Shown here: in pieces, positions 18,845-30,042 of the stretch
How positions within the stretch are numbered: position 1 is the stretch's first letter
How the letters are laid out: every line of letters begins with the position of its first letter
Assembly (NCBI RefSeq): GCF_003412455.1
Contig: NZ_QTJU01000001.1
Span: forward strand, 1 to 64,000
Reading direction: 5' to 3'
DNA from: Deminuibacter soli
GTDB lineage: Bacteria > Bacteroidota > Bacteroidia > Chitinophagales > Chitinophagaceae
DNA length: 64,000 nt
The notes under the pieces: generated by a model
Database searches by the model: none
Told to the model about the DNA's origin: nothing
What the model saw: the letters and a program-made list of their open reading frames with translations, nothing else
Made by a program: the position numbers and the translations under genes

Positions 18845-20527
18845 TTATATTGCTACTATTTTTTCCCGGAGTACAAAATCGCCAAAGCTTTCGTTCTTTT
18901 TCCTTTTTGCACTGTACAATCCCAGCAGGCCGTCCAGCTCCTGCAAGATAGCTGCCTCATCGAGGTTTTCCCGGTATTTCGTATTCAGCCTTGTGCCGTA
19001 ACGGTCGCCTCCCAAATGCAGGTTGTAGCGGCCATAGGCTGTGCCGATAAAACCAATCTCTGCTACATATGGCCTGCCGCAGCCATTGGGGCAACCGGTC
19101 ATGCGCACGCTGATGGCTTCTTTGTCCAGCTTATGCCTTGCCAGCAGTACTTCTATTTTATCAATCAGCAGGGGCAGGTAACGCTGTGCTTCGGCCAGTG
19201 CCAGCGGGCAGGTGTTAAAGGCCACGCAGGCGATAGAATTTTTGCGCACTTCGCTTGCCTGCCCCGTATGCGCGAGTACATGGTGTTTTTCAAGAATGGC
19301 TGCAACGGCCGCTTTGTTTGCCGGTTCAATATCTGCGAGTATCAGTTTCTGGTTGGCCGTAAAACGGAAATTGGCCAGTTTCACCTGCGCCACTTCGAGC
19401 ATGGCCGATTTCAGTGTAACTGCTTCGGTATCGAGTACCCGGCCATTTTCGGTAAACACGGTATAATACCATTTGCCTTCATGGTTCTGCTGCCAGCCAT
19501 ACAGGTCGTGCCTTTCCGTAAAGCTGTAAGCGCGCGCAGGTTCCAGTGCAAAGCCACAGCGCTTTTCCAGTTCTGCTTTAAATTGCTCCACGCCCATTTT
19601 ATCGATGGTGTATTTAAGCCTGGATAATTTTCGGTCACTGCGGTTGCCATAATCGCGCTGTATGGTGATGATTTCATATGCTGCTTTAAACAGCTTTTCA
19701 TCCGTATCCACAAAACCCAGCACAGTACCCAGCCTGGGATAAGTATTCGGGTTGCCATGCGTGGTACCCAAACCACCGCCTGCCACAATATTGAAGCCTT
19801 TCAGCTGTTCGTTTTCGATAATGGCAATCAACCCGAGATCGTTGATGAATACATCTACATCGTTGTTTGGCGGAATGGCAATGGCCATTTTGAATTTACG
19901 GGGCAGGTAACGATCCTGGTACAGGTTGTCTTCTTCCTTCGTTTTATCGGTAAGCGGTTCTTCGTTCAGCCATATTTCGTAATACGCACGCGTTTTGGGC
20001 AATCCCAGCTGGCTAAGTTTATCAGCGTAAGCAAATATCTGCTCATGAATGGCAGATTGCTTCGGATGCGCCGCACAAATCACGTTACGGTTCACGTCAC
20101 CGCAGGCGGCAATGGAATCCAGGCCAACGGTATTAAAATCCTGCAGCGTTGGTTTAATATGCGATTTCACAATACCATGTAGCTGTATGGTTTGCCTGGT
20201 GGTTATTTTGATGATGCCTGTTGCATGGTCGCCTGCAATATGGTGCAGCGCTTCCCACTGTTCGGGGGTTAAAAAACCGCCCGGCAAACGCAGTCGCACC
20301 ATGTAAGAATACAGCCATTCCAGTTTCTTCGCGCTGCGTTCCTCGCGGCGGTCACGGTCATCCTGCTGGTACATGCCGTGAAACTTAATGAGCGACTGGT
20401 CATCCTCGTACAAAGCGCCGGTTAAGTCGTTGCGCAGGCTTTCTTTCAGGGTGCCGCGCAGTCCGTCACTGGCCAGTTTGATGCGTTCAACCGGTGATAA
20501 ATTATTGGTATTGTTGTTTTGTGACAT
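18845..20527 (-). CDS. cysI: assimilatory sulfite reductase hemoprotein subunit
   Basis: 560 aa, the catalytic subunit that reduces sulfite to sulfide with six electrons at a siroheme-[4Fe-4S] centre. The cluster ligands are visible as CVAFNTC (about 430) and TGCPNGCGRPYVAEIG (about 475), the CX5C...CX3C pattern. Substrate and siroheme-contact regions also appear (GIIKITTRQTIQLHG, CGDVNRNV). Length matches E. coli CysI (570). It is cotranscribed with the flavoprotein gene 30 bases upstream and with the siroheme-synthase fusion downstream. Confidence 0.96.
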   Translation of the reverse strand: MSQNNNTNNLSPVERIKLASDGLRGTLKESLRNDLTGALYEDDQSLIKFHGMYQQDDRDRREERSAKKLEWLYSYMVRLRLPGGFLTPEQWEALHHIAGDHATGIIKITTRQTIQLHGIVKSHIKPTLQDFNTVGLDSIAACGDVNRNVICAAHPKQSAIHEQIFAYADKLSQLGLPKTRAYYEIWLNEEPLTDKTKEEDNLYQDRYLPRKFKMAIAIPPNNDVDVFINDLGLIAIIENEQLKGFNIVAGGGLGTTHGNPNTYPRLGTVLGFVDTDEKLFKAAYEIITIQRDYGNRSDRKLSRLKYTIDKMGVEQFKAELEKRCGFALEPARAYSFTERHDLYGWQQNHEGKWYYTVFTENGRVLDTEAVTLKSAMLEVAQVKLANFRFTANQKLILADIEPANKAAVAAILEKHHVLAHTGQASEVRKNSIACVAFNTCPLALAEAQRYLPLLIDKIEVLLARHKLDKEAISVRMTGCPNGCGRPYVAEIGFIGTAYGRYNLHLGGDRYGTRLNTKYRENLDEAAILQELDGLLGLYSAKRKKNESFGDFVLREKIVAI

Positions 20528-20557
20528 GTTGTTTGTTTTACTGCTGTACAGTAAGCA

Positions 20558-22255
20558 TTAATATACATCTTTCAGGTACCTGCCCTCTTCCTGCAACTGT
20601 TCCAGGTATGCTTTGGCTTCAGCGGTTGTTTTCGCTCCCTTTTCGCTGATCAGTTCCAGCAGGGCAGCTTCCACATCTTCGCTCATCGGTGCTTTGGCGC
20701 CGCATACATATACCGCAGCGCCATTCTGCAGCCAATCCCATACTTCAGCAGCTTGCTGTTGCAGGCGGTGCTGTACATAAATCTTGTCTTCCTGGTCGCG
20801 TGAAAAAGCCAGGCTTACATTGTGCAATGCACCGGTTTGCACGTAGTTCTGAATTTCTGTCTGGTACAGGAAATCTGAACTGAAATGCTGTTCGCCAAAA
20901 AACAGCCAGTTACGGCCGCTGGCACCCAGCGCATCGCGTTCTGCAATAAAAGAACGGAACGGTGCAATACCTGTACCCGGACCAATCATAATCACGTCTC
21001 TGCTTTCTTCAGGCAGGCGGAACAGGCTGTTGGGATGAATATAAAAATCAAACGTATCGCCAGGTTTCAGCTGTGACAGGAAATCTGAACACAGGCCGTA
21101 TTTTTTCTCCCCATTTATATCAAATCCGCAACGTGACACGGTTAAATGAATTTCATTCCCATGTGCAGCAGGTGAAGATGCAATGGAATACAAACGCGGA
21201 GCGATGGGCTCCAGTATGCTGAACACTTCTTCAAACTGCGCCGCATCTTTTACGGGGTATATCTTCAGCAGGTCAACCAGGTCTATCCGTGTTACGGGAA
21301 TATCCTGCTGTACAATGATGGCATATTGGGCAACCACCCTTTCAGGCAAGTGCTGCAGGTTTATCTTCTTTACCAGCAGTTCGTATGCAGTGGCAGTTGT
21401 ATCCCTGAAAGCAATTTCTGTATCCCCTTTTAAGCCGGTGAGGGAAAGAATAGCTTCCACCAATGCGGGTTTGTTGTGTGGTATCAACCCCAGTGAGTCA
21501 CCGGGCAGATAGGCCACATCTTCCTCCGCACCAATTTCAATATGATGCGTTTGCTTGTTTGAATCGCGGTCGTTCAGGTTGATATTCGTAATAATGGTGC
21601 CGGTATAATTCTTTTTGTGCGCTGCTTTCTTCACGGGTACAGGAGCTGCCGACGCAGTGCCTGACAAGGATTGTATTACCTGTTCAAACCATTGTGCTGC
21701 TTCCGTTTCATAGTCTGTATCACATTTCACCAGCGATAACACACGGTTACCGCCAAGCTTTTGCAGCTGGGCATCTACATCTTCCGCCGCTTTGCAGAAC
21801 AAGGGGTATGAAGTATCACCCAGGCCCAGTACTGCAAACTTCAGGTTGTGCAATTGCAGGGGCTGCTGGTGAATATGATCATAAAACTTTTGTGCAGTGG
21901 CAGGCGGTTCGCCATCGCCCTGGGTGCTGATCACAGCAAACAGGTACTCTTCTTTTGCAAGATCGCTGAGGCGGTATTGATCCAGCCCGGCGAGTTTTAC
22001 GGTAACTCCTTTTTTCTTGGCTGCAGCAGCAAACTGTGTGGCCAGTTTTTTTGAATTACCGGTTTCAGTGCCATAGGTAATGGTGATTTTTTTTACCAGC
22101 ACTGCTGCTGCTTCTGCAACGGCAGGCACTGCCGGCACGGCCTCACCATTGCTTTGCATTAAACCTGCAAGAAAGCCATTCATCCAGATCAGCTCATCGC
22201 GCGAAGCTTTGCTCACCAGCTCCCTGAACACTTGTAAATTAGGCTCTGCTAACAT
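20558..22255 (-). CDS. cysJ: sulfite reductase flavoprotein subunit
   Basis: 565 aa diflavin reductase that passes electrons from NADPH to CysI. An N-terminal extension (1-55) precedes a flavodoxin FMN domain (ITITYGTETGNSKKLATQFA, GLGDTSYPLFC), then an FAD-binding connecting domain (RLYSIASSP, YGLCSDFLS) and an NADPH domain (MIGPGTGIAPFRSFIAER) ending RYLKDVY. Same architecture as E. coli CysJ (599 aa). The first 17 bases overlap the end of cobA, which suggests translational coupling. Confidence 0.95.
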   Translation of the reverse strand: MLAEPNLQVFRELVSKASRDELIWMNGFLAGLMQSNGEAVPAVPAVAEAAAVLVKKITITYGTETGNSKKLATQFAAAAKKKGVTVKLAGLDQYRLSDLAKEEYLFAVISTQGDGEPPATAQKFYDHIHQQPLQLHNLKFAVLGLGDTSYPLFCKAAEDVDAQLQKLGGNRVLSLVKCDTDYETEAAQWFEQVIQSLSGTASAAPVPVKKAAHKKNYTGTIITNINLNDRDSNKQTHHIEIGAEEDVAYLPGDSLGLIPHNKPALVEAILSLTGLKGDTEIAFRDTTATAYELLVKKINLQHLPERVVAQYAIIVQQDIPVTRIDLVDLLKIYPVKDAAQFEEVFSILEPIAPRLYSIASSPAAHGNEIHLTVSRCGFDINGEKKYGLCSDFLSQLKPGDTFDFYIHPNSLFRLPEESRDVIMIGPGTGIAPFRSFIAERDALGASGRNWLFFGEQHFSSDFLYQTEIQNYVQTGALHNVSLAFSRDQEDKIYVQHRLQQQAAEVWDWLQNGAAVYVCGAKAPMSEDVEAALLELISEKGAKTTAEAKAYLEQLQEEGRYLKDVY

Positions 22256-23093
22256 GGGCTGTACGTTTTTGCGGGTGAAGAATGGCTGCGTGCATGGGGG
22301 CTACAGCTTTAAAATATTCCTCCTGGCTGTTGCTGTTGCCTAACCAGGCAAACTGGCGGTGCAGGTCAACCACCTTGCCTATTACTACGAGTGAAGGCGA
22401 CACAAATTGTTTGCCTTTCAGCAGGGTGTTAAACTCGTGAATATGGCAGGTATACACATTCTGCAAGGCAGTGGTAGCCTGTTCTATTACAGCCAGCTGC
22501 ATGGACGCATCGATACCATGCCTGGTTAAATTGGTTACAATGCCTTCAATGGTATCGGCAGACATATAAAACACCAAAGTATCAGTGGTGTGTGCCAGTT
22601 CTTTCCAGTAGGCATCTGCGATCACTTCATTTTTATAAAAAGTAAGAAAACGCACGGCGGTGGAATATTCACGTGCCGTAAGCGGCATGCCTGCATAAGC
22701 AGCAGCACCGAGCGCAGCTGTTACACCGGGTATAATTTCGTAGGGAATGCCCAGCTCTTTCAGCGTGATCAGTTCATCGAGTATATTGGAGAAAATTGAT
22801 ACATCACCACCTTTTAAACGCACCACCAGCTTGCCTTCCAGCGCGTATTTCGCCAACAGTGCATTGATCGATTCCTGCGGGGTGGAATTGCCTTTGCGGC
22901 ATTGTTTGCCCACATAAATAACCTGTGCGGCTTCGTTTACATACCATTTCAGTATGTCATCGCTTACCAGCCGGTCGGTTAATACCACATCGGCCTGGCG
23001 AAGGTAACGGATAGCTTTGGCCGTAATCAGCTCCGGGTCGCCGGGGCCGGCTGCTGCCAGTATCACTTTTCCTGTTGTATGTTGCAGAGACAT
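22239..23093 (-). CDS. cobA: uroporphyrinogen-III C-methyltransferase
   Basis: 284 aa SAM-dependent methyltransferase that converts uroporphyrinogen III to precorrin-2, the first siroheme-specific step. Motifs: AAGPGDPELITAKAIRYL near residue 14, VVRLKGGDVSIFSN, EIIPGVTAALGAAAYAGMPL, and the SAM-binding YMSAD loop. Its product feeds the CysG-like half of the fusion at the end of the operon, so the full siroheme branch is encoded here. It overlaps cysJ by 17 bases. Confidence 0.94.
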   Translation of the reverse strand: MSLQHTTGKVILAAAGPGDPELITAKAIRYLRQADVVLTDRLVSDDILKWYVNEAAQVIYVGKQCRKGNSTPQESINALLAKYALEGKLVVRLKGGDVSIFSNILDELITLKELGIPYEIIPGVTAALGAAAYAGMPLTAREYSTAVRFLTFYKNEVIADAYWKELAHTTDTLVFYMSADTIEGIVTNLTRHGIDASMQLAVIEQATTALQNVYTCHIHEFNTLLKGKQFVSPSLVVIGKVVDLHRQFAWLGNSNSQEEYFKAVAPMHAAILHPQKRTAHVSRA

Positions 23094-23173
23094 TAGTTCA
23101 TTAATTTAGTAGAATAATAAAACGCACCGTGTCTTCCGGTACTGTCTTTTATCTGCTGCATGCAGCGGTTAGT

Positions 23174-24088
23174 TTAAAACAATCCGTCTATTGATAAATA
23201 CCTTTCGCCAGTATCGTAATTGAATGTAAGCACGGTTGCGCCGGCGGGAATTTCCGGCAGTTTCTTTGCCACTGCGGCCAGTGCAGCGCCGGTAGATATA
23301 CCTGTAAATACGCCTTCTTCTTTTGCAAAACGCTGTGCATATTCAAACGCTTCGTCTTTCCCCACCTGTATCACGCCATCGAGCAGCTGCGTATTCATAA
23401 TGGAGGGTATAAAACCGGCGCCCAGGCCCTGCAGCGGGTGCGGTGAAGGACTGCCGCCGCTCAGTACAGGCGACAATTCAGGTTCTACTGCAAACACTTT
23501 CAGGTCAGGAAAATGCTGTTTCAATACTTCAGCAACACCGGTAATATGCCCGCCGGTACCTACACCTGTAATCAGGTAATCGATGCCACCGGGAAAATCG
23601 TTCAGTATTTCACGCGCAGTTGTTTTGCGGTGTACTTCAGTATTGGCTGCATTGTCAAACTGCTGCGGCATCCATGCATGCGGCGTGGCGTTTACCAGCT
23701 CAGTTGCCTTTTCAATGGCGCCTTTCATGCCTTTTTCGCGCGGTGTTAATACAAACTCAGCGCCATAGGCAGCCATCAGTTTCCTGCGCTCAATGCTCAT
23801 TGATTCCGGCATTACCAGTATTAACCGGTACCCCTTAACAGCTGCTACCAGCGCCAAACCAATGCCGGTGTTGCCCGATGTTGGTTCAATAATAACGCTC
23901 TCTTTATTCAACAATCCCTTCTGCTCCGCATCTTCAATCATCGCAAGGGCAATACGGTCTTTAATACTGTTGCCCGGGTTGCTGCGCTCCAGTTTTATCC
24001 AAACGTTGGCACTGCTTCCGTTGTACAGTTTATTGATCCGCAAATGGGGCGTGTTGCCAATGGTTTCTAAAATGCTGTTTGCTTTCAT
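23174..24088 (-). CDS. cysK: cysteine synthase A (O-acetylserine sulfhydrylase)
   Basis: 304 aa PLP enzyme that makes L-cysteine from O-acetylserine and sulfide. The Schiff-base Lys is in [15 protein letters not shown] (about residue 43), the substrate loop is [14 protein letters not shown], and the phosphate-binding loop is [10 protein letters not shown]. Full length. The 124-base gap to cysE contains an ATCAC-TATTG-GTGAT palindrome (24154-24168), so an internal promoter is possible. Confidence 0.95.
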
Positions 24089-24153
24089 GGTTGATTCTTT
24101 TTGCCTTGATTTTCTGATTCAACAAAGTTGCTGCATATTGAACAACGGCTTAC

Positions 24154-24168
24154 ATCACTATTGGTGAT
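24154..24168. promoter_or_regulatory. palindrome ATCAC-N5-GTGAT in the cysE-cysK gap
   Basis: Perfect five-base arms around TATTG, 66 bases upstream of cysK. It could be a protein-binding site or a small RNA hairpin. No T run follows, so a terminator is unlikely. Confidence 0.3.
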
Positions 24169-24212
24169 AGCCCATTACTTCAGGTTATGACACCCTTGTT
24201 TCTGATAACCTG

Positions 24213-25049
24213 TTAAATCACAAAATTCAAAGGCTCGGGAAAAGGATTGTTGTCTTTTACGCGTATTTCGCTTTTATGATAAACGACAGATGCCGCCGGC
24301 ACGCTGTAGGTTAAAAATACATTGCCGCCGATAATGCTATCGTGCCCCACCACTGTTGTGCCGCCTAAAATGCTGGCGCCGGAGTAAATAATCACATTGT
24401 CTTCAATGGTAGGATGGCGCTTGGTATCGGCCCCCTTGCTTTTGGCTACATTAAGTGCGCCCAGTGTTACCCCCTGGTAAATTTTTACATGATCGCCGAT
24501 AACCGTTGTTTCACCAATTACAATGCCGGTGCCGTGGTCAATGGCGAAGGCCTTACCAATAGTAGCACCGGGGTGAATATCGATACCCGTATTGCTATGT
24601 GCATACTCAGTTAAAATGCGTGGCAGTACCGGCACATCCAGCTCCCACAGCGCATGTGCAAAGCGGTATACGGCAGTGGCAAAAAAACCGGGATAGGCAA
24701 TCAGCACTTCCTCCACGCTGCGCGCTGCGGGATCAAACTCCAGAATGGCGTTGGCATCTTCCAGCAACACTTCGTAAATGGAAGGTATTTCTTCAAAAAA
24801 GGCCTCTGCAGCGGTTTGCAGGGTTTGGGTATTGGCAATTACATCCTGCAGCAGGGTTTGCAAATGGCCCTGCAGGTTGGCGTAGGCGTTCTCCACATCC
24901 AGCAGGTTACGCATTTTGCCCTTGGTGGCGCCAAAGAGAAAATGAAATAACCGGTCGGTAAATTCCGCAGCCAGCGTTTTACTGGGATAACCGGTAAATC
25001 CATGCTGGTTGCGTTGAAAAAGAGCCGACAGAAATTGCTGTTGTGTCAT
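24213..25049 (-). CDS. cysE: serine O-acetyltransferase
   Basis: 278 aa acetyltransferase that activates serine for CysK. An N-terminal helical domain (1-150) is followed by left-handed beta-helix hexapeptide repeats (IDIHPGATIGKAFAIDHG, GIVIGETTVIGDHVKIYQG, GASILGGTTVVGHDSIIGG). Catalytic Asp/His are seen in FAIDHGTG. The protein ends in FVI: a C-terminal Ile is the residue that enters the CysK active site in the cysteine synthase complex of other bacteria. It lies between cysN and cysK. Confidence 0.93.
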   Translation of the reverse strand: MTQQQFLSALFQRNQHGFTGYPSKTLAAEFTDRLFHFLFGATKGKMRNLLDVENAYANLQGHLQTLLQDVIANTQTLQTAAEAFFEEIPSIYEVLLEDANAILEFDPAARSVEEVLIAYPGFFATAVYRFAHALWELDVPVLPRILTEYAHSNTGIDIHPGATIGKAFAIDHGTGIVIGETTVIGDHVKIYQGVTLGALNVAKSKGADTKRHPTIEDNVIIYSGASILGGTTVVGHDSIIGGNVFLTYSVPAASVVYHKSEIRVKDNNPFPEPLNFVI

Positions 25050-25094: not shown

Positions 25095-26336
25095 TTATTG
25101 AATCATGCAGGCGCCCACGGTAACATGACTTGTTTCGTCAATTAAAATAGCGCCGCCGCTGGTACGCAGTTTTTTGTATGCGTCAAATGCAACAGGCCTG
25201 GCTACTTTAATTGTTGCCTTTACAATATCGTTCAGGACTGCCTGTTCAGGACTGGCATGCTGTTCCAGCGTGTTTACATCTACCTTGTATTGCAGTTCTT
25301 TTACCACGCTTTTTACCACCGTGCTGTTTAACTGCAGCAGGTATTTTTTACCGGCAGCCAATGGTTTTGTATCCATCCAGCACAGCAGCACTTCCAGCTC
25401 CTGCGCTACGTTTGGCTGGTCATTGCTTTTTACAATTACATCGCCACGGCTAATGTCTACATCATCGGCCAGGTGCAGTATAACGCTTTGCGGCGCAAAT
25501 GCTTCTTCCACTTCCTTGCCATTTAATTCAATGGCCGTAATGGTGCTGGTTACACCGGAAGGCAGCACGGTAACAGCATCGCCTTTTTTGTAGATACCGC
25601 TGTGCAGCTTGCCTGCATAACCACGATAGTCGTGCAGTTCTTCTGTTTGCGGGCGAATAACGTATTGCACCGGGAAACGGGCATGCTCCAGGTCAATATC
25701 CTGCTGTACCTGTACTTTTTCAAGAATAGACAGCAGCGCCTCCCCTTCGTACCAGGGTGTGGTTGCCGCTTTTTCTACAATATTATCGCCCTTCAGCGCA
25801 CTGATGGGAATATAGGTTACCTCTTTTAAACCCAGTGATTTTGCCATGTTGGCGTAATCAATCACAATGTTGTTGTATACATCCTGCGAGTATTCTACCA
25901 GGTCCATTTTATTGATGGCTACCACTACATGCGGCAAACCCAGCAGTGATGCAATAATGCTGTGGCGCCTGGTTTGTTCTACCACACCGCTGCGTGCATC
26001 AACCAGGATAATGATCAGGTCTGAGTTGGATGCACCGGTAACCATGTTACGGGTGTACTGTATATGACCGGGTGCATCGGCTATAATAAACTTGCGGCTG
26101 GGTGTGGAGAAATATTTGTACGCCACATCAATGGTGATACCCTGTTCGCGCTCAGCACGCAGGCCATCGGTTAACAAGGCCAGGTCTATTTCACCGTCTT
26201 CCTTGTTCTTACTCTGTTTTTCAATTGCTTCCAGCTGGTCAATCAGTATGCTTTTGCTGTCGTACAGCAAACGGCCTATTAACGTGCTTTTGCCGTCGTC
26301 TACACTGCCGGCTGTGATAAAACGCAGTAAATCCAT
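25095..26336 (-). CDS. cysN: sulfate adenylyltransferase, GTPase subunit
   Basis: 413 aa GTPase that drives sulfate activation to APS together with CysD. The start at 26336 (MDLLRFITAGSVDDGKSTLI) is set by the family N-terminus; an upstream ATG adds 12 residues of no match. G motifs: GSVDDGKST (P-loop), DAPGHIQYTRNM, and NKMDLVEYS. Elongation-factor-like beta-barrels follow to the C-terminus. There is no APS-kinase (CysC) domain, in line with the APS-type reductase encoded upstream. Confidence 0.95.
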   Translation of the reverse strand: MDLLRFITAGSVDDGKSTLIGRLLYDSKSILIDQLEAIEKQSKNKEDGEIDLALLTDGLRAEREQGITIDVAYKYFSTPSRKFIIADAPGHIQYTRNMVTGASNSDLIIILVDARSGVVEQTRRHSIIASLLGLPHVVVAINKMDLVEYSQDVYNNIVIDYANMAKSLGLKEVTYIPISALKGDNIVEKAATTPWYEGEALLSILEKVQVQQDIDLEHARFPVQYVIRPQTEELHDYRGYAGKLHSGIYKKGDAVTVLPSGVTSTITAIELNGKEVEEAFAPQSVILHLADDVDISRGDVIVKSNDQPNVAQELEVLLCWMDTKPLAAGKKYLLQLNSTVVKSVVKELQYKVDVNTLEQHASPEQAVLNDIVKATIKVARPVAFDAYKKLRTSGGAILIDETSHVTVGACMIQ

Positions 26337-26405
26337 AAATGTGGTTATTAAGAAACCGGCACTTCGCAGCACCGGCGATGAATAAAATGTTGTTGCAATA
26401 CCTGT

Positions 26406-27314
26406 TTAGAAATAGCCGTTCTTTTTCCTGTCTTCCATGGCTGCTTCAGATACCTTATCGTCGATGCGTGTTTCACCGCGTTCACTGGTTTTGGTAGCGG
26501 TTATTTCGCGGATGATATCATCGATATTGGTGGCGACTGATTCAACAGCAGCAGTACAGGTCATATCACCTACCGTGCGGTAACGAACGGTTTTGGTAAC
26601 AACGCTGTCTGTGGGTTCCAGCTGTATAAATTCAGAAGTAGCCACCAGTTGTCCTTCGTATTCCAGCACTTCCCTTTCGTGTGAAAAGTAAATGGATGGC
26701 AGCGCAATTTTTTCGCGGCGTATGTAATTCCAGATATCCAGCTCTGTCCAGTTGCTGATAGGGAACACACGTACGTTTTCGCCCTTGCTTATTTTACCAT
26801 TGTAGATATTCCACAACTCAGGACGCTGGCGTTTGGGATCCCACTGGCCAAATTCATCACGTACGGAGAAGATGCGTTCTTTGGCGCGTGCTTTTTCTTC
26901 ATCCCTGCGTGCGCCGCCTATGCAGGCATCAAATTCAAACTCTTCGATGGTATCGAGCAGGGTAAAGGTTTGCAGTGCATTGCGGCTTGCGAATTTGCCT
27001 TTGGGTTCTGTTAAACCCTTGGCTTTAATGGTATCTGCTACTTTGCGCACAATGAGTTTTTCACCAATCTGTTCGGCCAGCATATCCCTGAAAGCAAGGG
27101 CTTCGGGAAAGTTGTGACCTGTATCAATATGTACCAGCGGAAAAGGGAATTTACCGGGGCGGAATGCTTTTAATGCCAGGTGCACCAGGGTAATGGAATC
27201 TTTACCACCACTAAACAGCAATGCAGGACGTTCAAACTGCCCTGCCACTTCGCGCATGATGTGTATTGATTCTGATTCTAACTGGTCCAGGTAATCCAAA
27301 CGGTATTGTGACAT
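26406..27314 (-). CDS. cysD: sulfate adenylyltransferase, catalytic subunit
   Basis: 302 aa PAPS-reductase-like ATP sulfurylase small subunit. PP-loop FSGGKDSITLVHLALKAF near residue 33, HIDTGHNFPEAL, GGARRDEEKARAKERIFS and the C-terminal family ending DRKKNGYF are all present. It forms the heterodimer with CysN, encoded 69 bases downstream. Confidence 0.96.
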   Translation of the reverse strand: MSQYRLDYLDQLESESIHIMREVAGQFERPALLFSGGKDSITLVHLALKAFRPGKFPFPLVHIDTGHNFPEALAFRDMLAEQIGEKLIVRKVADTIKAKGLTEPKGKFASRNALQTFTLLDTIEEFEFDACIGGARRDEEKARAKERIFSVRDEFGQWDPKRQRPELWNIYNGKISKGENVRVFPISNWTELDIWNYIRREKIALPSIYFSHEREVLEYEGQLVATSEFIQLEPTDSVVTKTVRYRTVGDMTCTAAVESVATNIDDIIREITATKTSERGETRIDDKVSEAAMEDRKKNGYF

Positions 27315-27359: not shown

Positions 27360-28088
27360 TTAATTGGCATGTACATGCAGTCCGCATTCTTTTTTATCTG
27401 CATCTTCCCACCACCAGCGGCCGGCCCTGAAATCTTCGCCGGGTTTAATGGCCCGTGTGCAGGGCGCACAGCCAATGCTTACAAAACCGCGGTCGTGCAA
27501 AGGATTATAGGGAATATTGTTGTTGTGTACAAATGCAGTTAATTCATCCGTATCCCAATTGAGCAACGGGTGGTATTTAACTAAGTTGTTGCTGCCATCC
27601 CATTCTACCTGCGTCATGTCGTGGCGGTTGGGTGAATGCGCAGCGCGGATACCGGTGATCCATACTTTTTTATTGCGCAACGCGCGTTGCAGTGGTTCTA
27701 CCTTGCGTATGTGGCAGCACTGTTTGCGGTTGTCAACTGATTCGTAAAAATTGTTGGGACCTTTTTCTCCTACAAATGCCTGCAGCGAAGTAGCATCGGG
27801 ATAATAAGGTGTAATAGGCTGCCGGTATTTCTGCAGTGTACTGCTCCAGGTACTGTAAGTTTCAGGAAACATGCGGCCGGTATCGAGTGTAAACACTTCG
27901 ATGGGTAACTGGTTGCTAAAGATGAAGTGAGTGATCACCTGGTCTTCCCAGCTGAAACTGGTGGAAAATACAACCTGGCCGGGATAGGCTGCTGCAATGG
28001 CATGCAGCGCCGAAGGTATGTCGGTAGCTGCTTCGATGAGCTGTTGCAGATCGGAAATTTCTTTGTTTGCTGTACTCGTAAATGACAT
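27360..28088 (-). CDS. cysH: adenylyl-sulfate (APS) reductase, [4Fe-4S] type
   Basis: About 242 aa reductase giving sulfite. The motifs CCHIRKVEPLQRAL (about 136) and SIGCAPCTRA (about 217) provide the four Cys ligands of a [4Fe-4S] cluster, the mark of reductases that use APS rather than PAPS. The C-terminal KECGLH holds the catalytic Cys. No CysC kinase is seen in the window, which fits. Two starts are possible, 28100 and 28088. The first lies inside the arm of an inverted repeat (28098-28108). It is the first large gene of the operon and is preceded by a Cys-rich leader ORF. Confidence 0.93.
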   Translation of the reverse strand: MSFTSTANKEISDLQQLIEAATDIPSALHAIAAAYPGQVVFSTSFSWEDQVITHFIFSNQLPIEVFTLDTGRMFPETYSTWSSTLQKYRQPITPYYPDATSLQAFVGEKGPNNFYESVDNRKQCCHIRKVEPLQRALRNKKVWITGIRAAHSPNRHDMTQVEWDGSNNLVKYHPLLNWDTDELTAFVHNNNIPYNPLHDRGFVSIGCAPCTRAIKPGEDFRAGRWWWEDADKKECGLHVHAN

Positions 28089-28097
28089 AGTAAAGTG

Positions 28098-28183
28098 CAT
28101 TGATGGTAAGAGAATAAAAAGAACATTGCAGTAGGCTTACTGGCAACAACAACACTTGTTATGGAGGAAACGTACCATCAATG
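28098..28183 (-). promoter_or_regulatory. leader RNA structures between the cysH leader peptide and cysH
   Basis: A perfect 11-base inverted repeat (TACCATCAATG 28173-28183, CATTGATGGTA 28098-28108) would tie the start region of the Cys-rich leader ORF to the start region of cysH. Inside it, a second hairpin (CAGTA-AGCC-TACTG with outer TTG/CAA, 28126-28146) begins at the last Cys codon and is followed on the minus strand by TGTTCTTTTTATTC. These are competing structures of the kind used in attenuation, though the mechanism is inferred. Confidence 0.5.
28137..28178 (-). CDS. poly-cysteine leader peptide of the cys operon
   Basis: ATG at 28178, 13 codons, stop TAA at 28137-28139: MVRFLHNKCCCCQ. 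Four successive Cys codons (TGT TGT TGT TGC) end two codons before the stop. It begins about 28 bases after the predicted transcription start and lies 37-48 bases ahead of cysH. A tiny ORF with a Cys run in front of a sulfate-assimilation operon is what a cysteine-responsive attenuator would look like: ribosomes slow at the Cys run when Cys-tRNA is low. It has no relative to compare with here except the metY leader at 30119. Too short for ordinary gene finding. Confidence 0.65.
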   Translation of the reverse strand: MVRFLHNKCCCCQ

Positions 28184-28195
28184 ATTTTTTATTAC

Positions 28196-28220
28196 CCTAT
28201 CAACTTTGTAGACAAAAATA
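28196..28220 (-). promoter_or_regulatory. cys operon promoter -7 box and overlapping operator-like palindrome
   Basis: On the minus strand TATTTTTG (28213-28220) fits the TAnnTTTG -7 element, although no clear -33 element is seen. It runs directly into the complement of CCTATCAACTTTGTAG (28196-28211), which is 14 of 16 identical to the site at the metY promoter. The site covers the expected transcription start, a position suited to repression. Confidence 0.5.
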
Positions 28221-28860: not shown

Positions 28861-30042
28861 ATGAGCAACGCAACACAACTCATCCACAGCATTCCGGTAG
28901 ATCCGCAAACAGGCGCTATTGCAGTGCCTATTTACCAAACTTCCACCTTTGTGCAGGATGCACCAGGCGTTAACAAGGGGTATGATTATGCACGTACCAA
29001 CAACCCCACCAGGGCCACACTGGAACAGATTGTGGCACAACTGGAGAAAGGCCATACCGGCATTGCATTCGGCAGCGGCCTTGCAGCCATTGATGCGGTA
29101 TTGAAACTGCTGAAAAGCGGTGACGAAATTGTTGCAGTAGATGATATTTACGGCGGCGCCTTTCGCCTGTTTACCCAGGTGTACGAAAAATTCGGCATCA
29201 AGGTGCATTACACAGACACCACCAGGGCCGAAAACGTGTTCAACGCCATTACGCCCAACACAAAGCTCATATGGCTTGAAACACCCACCAACCCAACGCT
29301 CAAAATCTCCGACATTGCCGCTATTGCACAAATAGCCAAAGCCAACCGGTGTTTATTGTGCGTGGATAATACTTTTGCTTCACCCGCCCTACAACAGCCT
29401 CTTTCGCTGGGAGCTGACCTTGTAGTGCACTCTGCCACCAAGTACCTCGGCGGTCACAGCGATCTTATTGCAGGCATCGTGGTTGCCCGTGAAAAAGAGC
29501 TGGGCGATAAAATCAAATTTATCCAGAATGCCAGCGGTGCTATACTGGCCCCGTTTGACAGCTGGCTGGTAATACGCGGTATTGAAACGTTACACCTGCG
29601 GGTAAAACAACACAGTGCCAATGCCCTGGAAGTAGCCCGCTTCCTGGAACAGCACCCGCTGGTTGACAAAGTGTTTTACCCTGGTTTGGCCTCGCACCCC
29701 AACCACGAAATTGCTAAAAAACAAGCCAAAGCGTTTGGCGGCGTGGTATCTTTCACATTAAAGAATGATACCGAAGAAGCTGCCATACAATTTGTAACAC
29801 ATACCAGGTTATTTAAACTGGCCGAAAGCCTCGGCGGCGTAAAAAGCCTGCTGTGCCACCCGGCCAACATGACGCATAAATCTATCCCGGCAGAAAAAAG
29901 AAGGGCCAGCGGTGTAGCTGACAGTTTAATCCGTTTATCGGTAGGACTGGAAGAAGCCGAAGACCTGATTGCCGACCTGGAGCAGGCGTTTACAGCAAAC
30001 CTTATTTCTTCACCCGTAAATGCAGCAGCATTGCAGAACTGA
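28861..30042 (+). CDS. metB: cystathionine gamma-synthase/lyase family PLP enzyme
   Basis: 393 aa gamma-family PLP enzyme of transsulfuration. Motifs: IPIYQTSTF-like [50 protein letters not shown], Schiff-base site [16 protein letters not shown] (Lys near 200) and [17 protein letters not shown]. Sequence alone does not separate the synthase (metB) from the gamma-lyase. Its place behind a SAM-I riboswitch and next to metY-metX-hom favours a methionine role. An 11-base direct repeat CTGTCTAAACA occurs at 28785 and again at 28851, just before the ATG. Confidence 0.82.

Follow-up and report, generated by a model that had tools for sequence, protein, structure and literature searches.

Organization of the locus

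The window, by which we mean the whole stretch of 64,000 nucleotides of Deminuibacter soli DNA that was analyzed, carries on its minus strand a probable sulfate-assimilation operon beginning with cysH. An open reading frame of only 13 codons, containing a run of cysteine codons, lies between the promoter element at 28220-28213 and cysH. In the direction of transcription, the features are:

28213..28220, minus strand: TATTTTTG, which fits the Bacteroidota -7 element TANNTTTG
28197..28211, minus strand: candidate operator, an imperfect palindrome (CTAC-N7-ATAG) located where transcription is expected to start
28173..28183, minus strand: 5' arm of a long-range helix, covering the leader start codon (evidence: covariation)
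28137..28178, minus strand: leader ORF of 13 codons, MVRFLHNKCCCCQ followed by a stop (evidence: sequence; type conserved in relatives)
28143..28154, minus strand: four Cys codons, TGT TGT TGT TGC, one codon ahead of the leader stop
about 28126..28146, minus strand: small hairpin that begins in the last two Cys codons and extends across the leader stop
28101..28136, minus strand: spacer between leader stop and cysH, C-rich and G-poor (rut-like) in relatives
28098..28108, minus strand: 3' arm of the long-range helix, directly 5' of the likely cysH start (evidence: covariation)
27360..28100, minus strand: cysH, PAPS reductase family (PF01507), likely start 28088
26406..27314, minus strand: cysD-like gene, second PF01507 protein
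25095..26372, minus strand: cysN-like GTPase (GTP_EFTU match)
18845..25049, minus strand: remaining genes of the probable operon, with names assigned from sequence reading alone

The leader starts with ATG at 28178-28176 and stops with TAA at 28139-28137. The original prediction, made from sequence alone, had claimed a 13-codon ORF with a Cys run at 28178-28137 between promoter and cysH, an 11-base inverted repeat around it, and an inner hairpin starting at the last Cys codon. The ORF held exactly; all 11 bp of the repeat, CATTGATGGTA (28183-28173) and TACCATCAATG (28108-28098), match; and the hairpin, which begins within the last two Cys codons, is present at about 28146-28126. This hairpin shows no sequence conservation and was negative in the terminator scan, and the leader RNA of the window as a whole is no more stable than its shuffles (z = 0.07). 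We take 28088 (MSFTS), and not 28100, to be the likely start of cysH, because the start in relatives comes about 13 nt past the repeat arm, and because the ATG at 28100 falls within this arm. The genes at 18845..25049 are serine acetyltransferase-like, cysteine synthase-like, siroheme methyltransferase-like, and sulfite reductase flavoprotein- and hemoprotein-like.

Of 60 relatives, 55 have a TANNTTTG element at most 95 nt from the leader ATG, compared with 3 of 120 control windows, and the distance from the end of the element to the ATG is 34 nt in the window and 28 nt (median) in the relatives. We conclude that the leader transcript has a 5' UTR and is not leaderless, with the transcription start being inferred from the position of TANNTTTG and not mapped. 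The palindrome CTAC-N7-(G/A)TAG is likely to be an operator, a candidate inferred from its sequence; that its regulator is of the Rrf2 type is possible, and no more than a guess. This palindrome is common to most family leaders, with two copies upstream in three of them (L003, L007, and L008), and is also found near both other leader loci of the D. soli genome.

On the opposite strand, a SAM-I riboswitch (Rfam RF00162; 28537-28664, plus strand) precedes a divergent methionine-type gene at 28861. It was the only nearby match to the Rfam 15 covariance models, in which no family matches the leader itself.

Conservation of the leader before cysH

We located cysH in 194 of 299 genomes of the family Chitinophagaceae and in 80 GTDB contigs, and drew additional upstream regions from family genomes, which gave 170 cysH upstream regions in all, from partly overlapping sources. 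A sense-strand ORF with 7-40 codons and a Cys run at its end was present in 67 of the 170 regions, and on the antisense strand in none. The same test with the other 19 amino acids gave no comparable contrast, the highest being leucine with 34 sense versus 23 antisense ORFs.

Once duplicates and three sequences lacking a clear cysH ATG had been dropped, 60 leaders remained. The peptide ends in Cys in 51 of these, and in all 60 the last Cys lies no more than 2 residues from the stop; use of TGT (226) and TGC (96) is mixed, and the peptide ahead of the run varies widely. Where cysH was scored as the first gene of its operon (77 Chitinophagaceae genomes), a strict rule finds a leader in 48; in some of the remaining 29, the start is mis-called or the Cys tail is weaker. 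Since the genomes are related, these counts are not independent events. The TGY-run pattern TGYTGYTGYTGY occurs 334 times in the 5.83-Mb genome; the run alone therefore proves nothing, significance drawn from these TGY4 runs by themselves was rejected, and the case rests on comparison.

Three relatives near the window (L002, L005, and L033) have lost the Cys run and kept both helix arms. Palindrome-rich repeat sequence occurs in the leader 5' of cysH in these three and in L009, with the Cys run lost or shortened and the arms remaining.

RNA structure, spacer, and terminators

Among 15 distinct relatives in the window's clade, the leader-start arm is paired with the one preceding cysH in 81% of cells, and 6 of the 11 pairs have changed on both sides. 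The covariation score of this helix is 0.221, versus a shuffled mean of 0.112 (none of 500 shuffles reached the score) and 0.119 for the best slid control; the arms were picked by hand, which favors the structure. Within the set of 60 family leaders, pairing reached p<0.05 in 9 for the start arm and in 6 for the Cys arm, so that the start-arm helix is not general in the family and is significant in the window's clade only. Pairing of the Cys codons with the cysH start was rejected as a general rule, there being no excess (6/60) despite the striking cases of L140 and L144. The original prediction had proposed checking whether the Cys run and the inverted repeat persist in relatives while other codons vary: the former is clearly the case across Chitinophagaceae, and the latter holds in the window's own clade only.

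In a fold model of the window, a lone stalled ribosome leaves the cysH start closed (7.4 to 8.2 kcal/mol), and release of cysH by such a ribosome is thus unsupported by the model. A stalled ribosome together with a second, upstream one does open it (6.1 kcal/mol in the window; clade median 6.6 to 4.3).

The spacer of the family leaders has a C/G ratio of 1.97, with C exceeding G in 92%, against 1.24-1.27 and 58-69% at other gene starts. By analogy, this composition resembles Rho loading sites; Rho dependence was not tested. No intrinsic terminator was found in the window's leader, and terminator-like sites occur in 2 of the 60 family leaders, where 2.5 would be expected. An intrinsic terminator as the output in Chitinophagaceae was rejected for this lack of excess.

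Leaders before other genes

Besides that of the window, the D. soli genome has two further leader loci. At C18:326888, the leader MLTQPNAYRFTVNISCAGLAACCCCCC precedes SusC, SusD, and a sulfatase; at C17:813257, the leader MKNLINQNCKQFRQALMQAFANTNYQPSFFSGCCC (MKNLINQ...GCCC before the stop) precedes SusC, SusD, an M14 peptidase, an ATP-grasp protein, and a luciferase-like (LLM) monooxygenase. The best NCBIfam match of the monooxygenase is dimethylsulfone monooxygenase SfnG, at 246 bits versus a cutoff of 383, and we therefore regard it as an SfnG relative without assigning it as SfnG. In the opposite orientation at the same locus, MFSKHLVQRYCCC stands before a glutamate dehydrogenase (L232, 5130-6428, minus strand) with no obvious sulfur link. 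Those matches in this genome to the operator-independent pattern TTTG..ATG..Cys3-stop that were inspected by eye proved to be out of frame or non-leaders, and a Cys6 match at C20:128750 lies inside an ORF and is not a leader.

In other genomes, leaders precede a siroheme methyltransferase/sulfite reductase operon (L234, L239), metX (L336), and a PhyH dioxygenase, the last in Chitinophagaceae (L233) as well as in family f53 (L329, L330). This PhyH-family enzyme of unknown role, with leaders in two families, is a possible candidate for a sulfur-scavenging function. Two leaders precede cysS: one is MFFLSHTCCCCCCC (60 nt; L335; cysS profile 445 bits, cutoff 340), and for the other the cysS gene was identified by sequence (L346). 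Of all the indications that charged tRNA(Cys) is what the leaders sense, these cysS cases are the strongest. A class-wide scan for Cys6-stop gave mostly non-leaders, and matches were retained only where a short in-frame ORF stood before a gene. Leaders before cysH or other sulfur genes were found in families f2, f3, f5, f6, f7, f17, f39, f40, and f53; outside Chitinophagaceae each case rests on one to few genomes, so breadth is shown and frequency is not.

Two arrangements occur in relatives. In four cases (L270, L296, L297, and L298), a leader with 7-8 Cys starts about 12-19 nt past the end of a SAM-I aptamer; SAM-I directly before a Cys leader was seen only in families other than the window's. 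In G401 (L302), a Cys or Met/Cys leader is followed by a strong intrinsic terminator, and in G470 (L253 end/L283) cysH is preceded by two tandem leader-terminator units in which Met and Cys are mixed.

Proposed mechanism

We consider it very likely that the window ORF is a cis-acting leader that senses Cys-tRNA(Cys). The data show a conserved Cys run placed at the stop, the gene context, a covarying helix, the spacer composition, and a lack of intrinsic terminators in the family; there are no expression or ribosome data, and translation, stalling, the direction of control, and the output step are inferred. With ample cysteine, the ribosome would complete the 13 codons and depart, and the leader RNA would refold, with the leader-start arm pairing with the arm before cysH and cysH and the downstream operon being repressed. 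With scarce Cys-tRNA, the ribosome would halt on the Cys codons beside the stop and, best with a second ribosome at or near the leader start, occupy the leader arm, leaving the cysH start free. Rho-dependent termination at the C-rich spacer may be a second or even the main output, in which case the halted ribosome would shield the start of the spacer.

The output is left undecided because the helix covaries in the window's clade only, the lone ribosome fails in the model, and the spacer is rut-like. Helix-based translation control is as likely as not to be the output in the window; for Rho-dependent termination we lean slightly to the negative; an output of another kind is unlikely; and the helix and Rho may possibly act together. 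The original inference that low Cys-tRNA stalls ribosomes here and opens cysH translation or transcription is supported by the comparative data, with stalling and the choice between transcription and translation remaining inferred.

Alternative explanations

The best-surviving alternative retains cysteine sensing and makes Rho-dependent termination the sole output: Rho would load on the spacer after ribosome release, a halted ribosome would shield it, and the helix would be secondary. In its favor, the Cys run adjoins the stop, the spacer is C-rich and G-poor in 92%, Chitinophagaceae show neither intrinsic terminators nor a family-wide helix, and the same proposal has been made for actinobacterial cys leaders (PMC1262725). 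Against it stand the covarying helix in the window's clade, the length of the window spacer, just 36-48 nt, and the weakness of base composition as evidence for a rut site. We are inclined, by a narrow margin, to doubt it.

A classical attenuator, with terminator and antiterminator, does hold for relatives with strong intrinsic terminators (G401, at L302, and G470, at L253/L283). It is very unlikely in the window, which lacks a terminator, as the 60 family leaders lack an excess of them.

Equally improbable is that the Cys-rich peptide itself senses a metal, a thiol, or the redox state. Cys-rich regulatory leaders that sense copper exist in Bordetella. Here, however, conservation is confined to the Cys run and its position at the stop, without a spacing motif, and the targets are sulfur genes and cysS.

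That the ORF is a chance one, control resting solely with a repressor at the CTAC-N-GTAG site, is all but excluded: the operator-like site is widespread and a single TGY run is common in a genome, but the count of 67/170 sense versus 0/170 antisense and the recurrence of leaders at cysS and other genes, also outside Chitinophagaceae, speak against it. A leader sensing Cys-tRNA(Cys), with helix, Rho, or both as output, remains our preferred reading.

Relation to known leaders

In 2005, a comparative study predicted that actinobacterial cys operons are preceded by leader peptides with a Cys run close to the stop; it detected no terminators and suggested Rho with polyY motifs (PMC1262725). Mycobacterial polycysteine leaders have been detected by ribosome profiling (PMC4633059), and the M. 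smegmatis leader was tested (Canestrari 2020, doi 10.1111/mmi.14498, as cited in PMC9031893, PMC9094748, and PMC13236596); the original prediction's mention of Cys-rich uORFs in mycobacteria thus held. The present leaders share with the actinobacterial ones a short ORF with a Cys run near the stop before cys or sulfur genes, the lack of a conserved terminator, a pyrimidine-rich spacer, several loci per genome with a shared response, and, in the window's clade though not family-wide, a leader RNA able to pair over the downstream start region. They differ in belonging to another phylum, in having no peptide similarity outside the run, and in their covarying leader-start helix, their SusC/D sulfur-scavenging and cysS targets, and their SAM riboswitch composites. 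Unlike the tested mycobacterial cases, which are leaderless, with the transcript beginning at the ORF start codon, the window ORF has a promoter and a 5' UTR (transcription start inferred).

Other systems are less close. The uORFC-8-2 motif of Rhodobacterales likewise places a leader with Cys codons before cysS (PMC8632094), but its Cys codons are a pair at positions 14-15, it includes an intrinsic terminator, and it is alphaproteobacterial. In the E. coli tnaC Rho attenuator, as may be the case here, a ribosome halted at the leader end may shield a rut site past the stop, and C-rich, G-poor RNA does follow the leader stop family-wide; tnaC, however, halts through a specific nascent peptide and free Trp, whereas a run of hungry codons is proposed for the window leader. 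Classical trp/his attenuators share leader codons for the product amino acid, but the window has no intrinsic terminator or antiterminator. SAM-I riboswitches (RF00162) regulate sulfur genes in the same genomes; the one in the window serves the divergent gene. Within the same phylum, leader-peptide attenuation has been proposed before amino-acid operons of Flavobacterium psychrophilum (PMC9723704), whose main text names no cysteine leader. We found no report of a cysteine leader in Bacteroidota in the literature searched, coverage being partial and the supplements of PMC9723704 excluded, which is consistent with the original statement that no case was known in Chitinophagaceae.

Implications

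We conclude that the window leader is of the same kind as the actinobacterial polycysteine leaders, in a leadered form, in another phylum, and with composite forms. A bolder reading, which we favor modestly, is a class-wide cysteine regulon of Bacteroidia built on ribosome-read poly-Cys leaders with up to 8 Cys, seemingly convergent with those of actinobacteria, the outputs of which would vary by lineage: intrinsic terminators, in some cases a tandem pair (G401, G470); control by helix or Rho in Chitinophagaceae; and a two-input form with a SAM-I aptamer and a 7-8 Cys leader within about 20 nt (L270, L296, L297, and L298). The apparent convergence with mycobacteria raises the question of why poly-Cys at the stop is reinvented, and the composite of SAM aptamer and Cys leader would offer a model for one transcript combining two sulfur signals. 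Short and readily overlooked by gene finders, the leader would mark sulfur-acquisition genes that are otherwise unrecognizable, such as the SusC/D systems and the PhyH dioxygenase. If this reading is true, cysteine control in Bacteroidota would rest on a ribosome-read leader.
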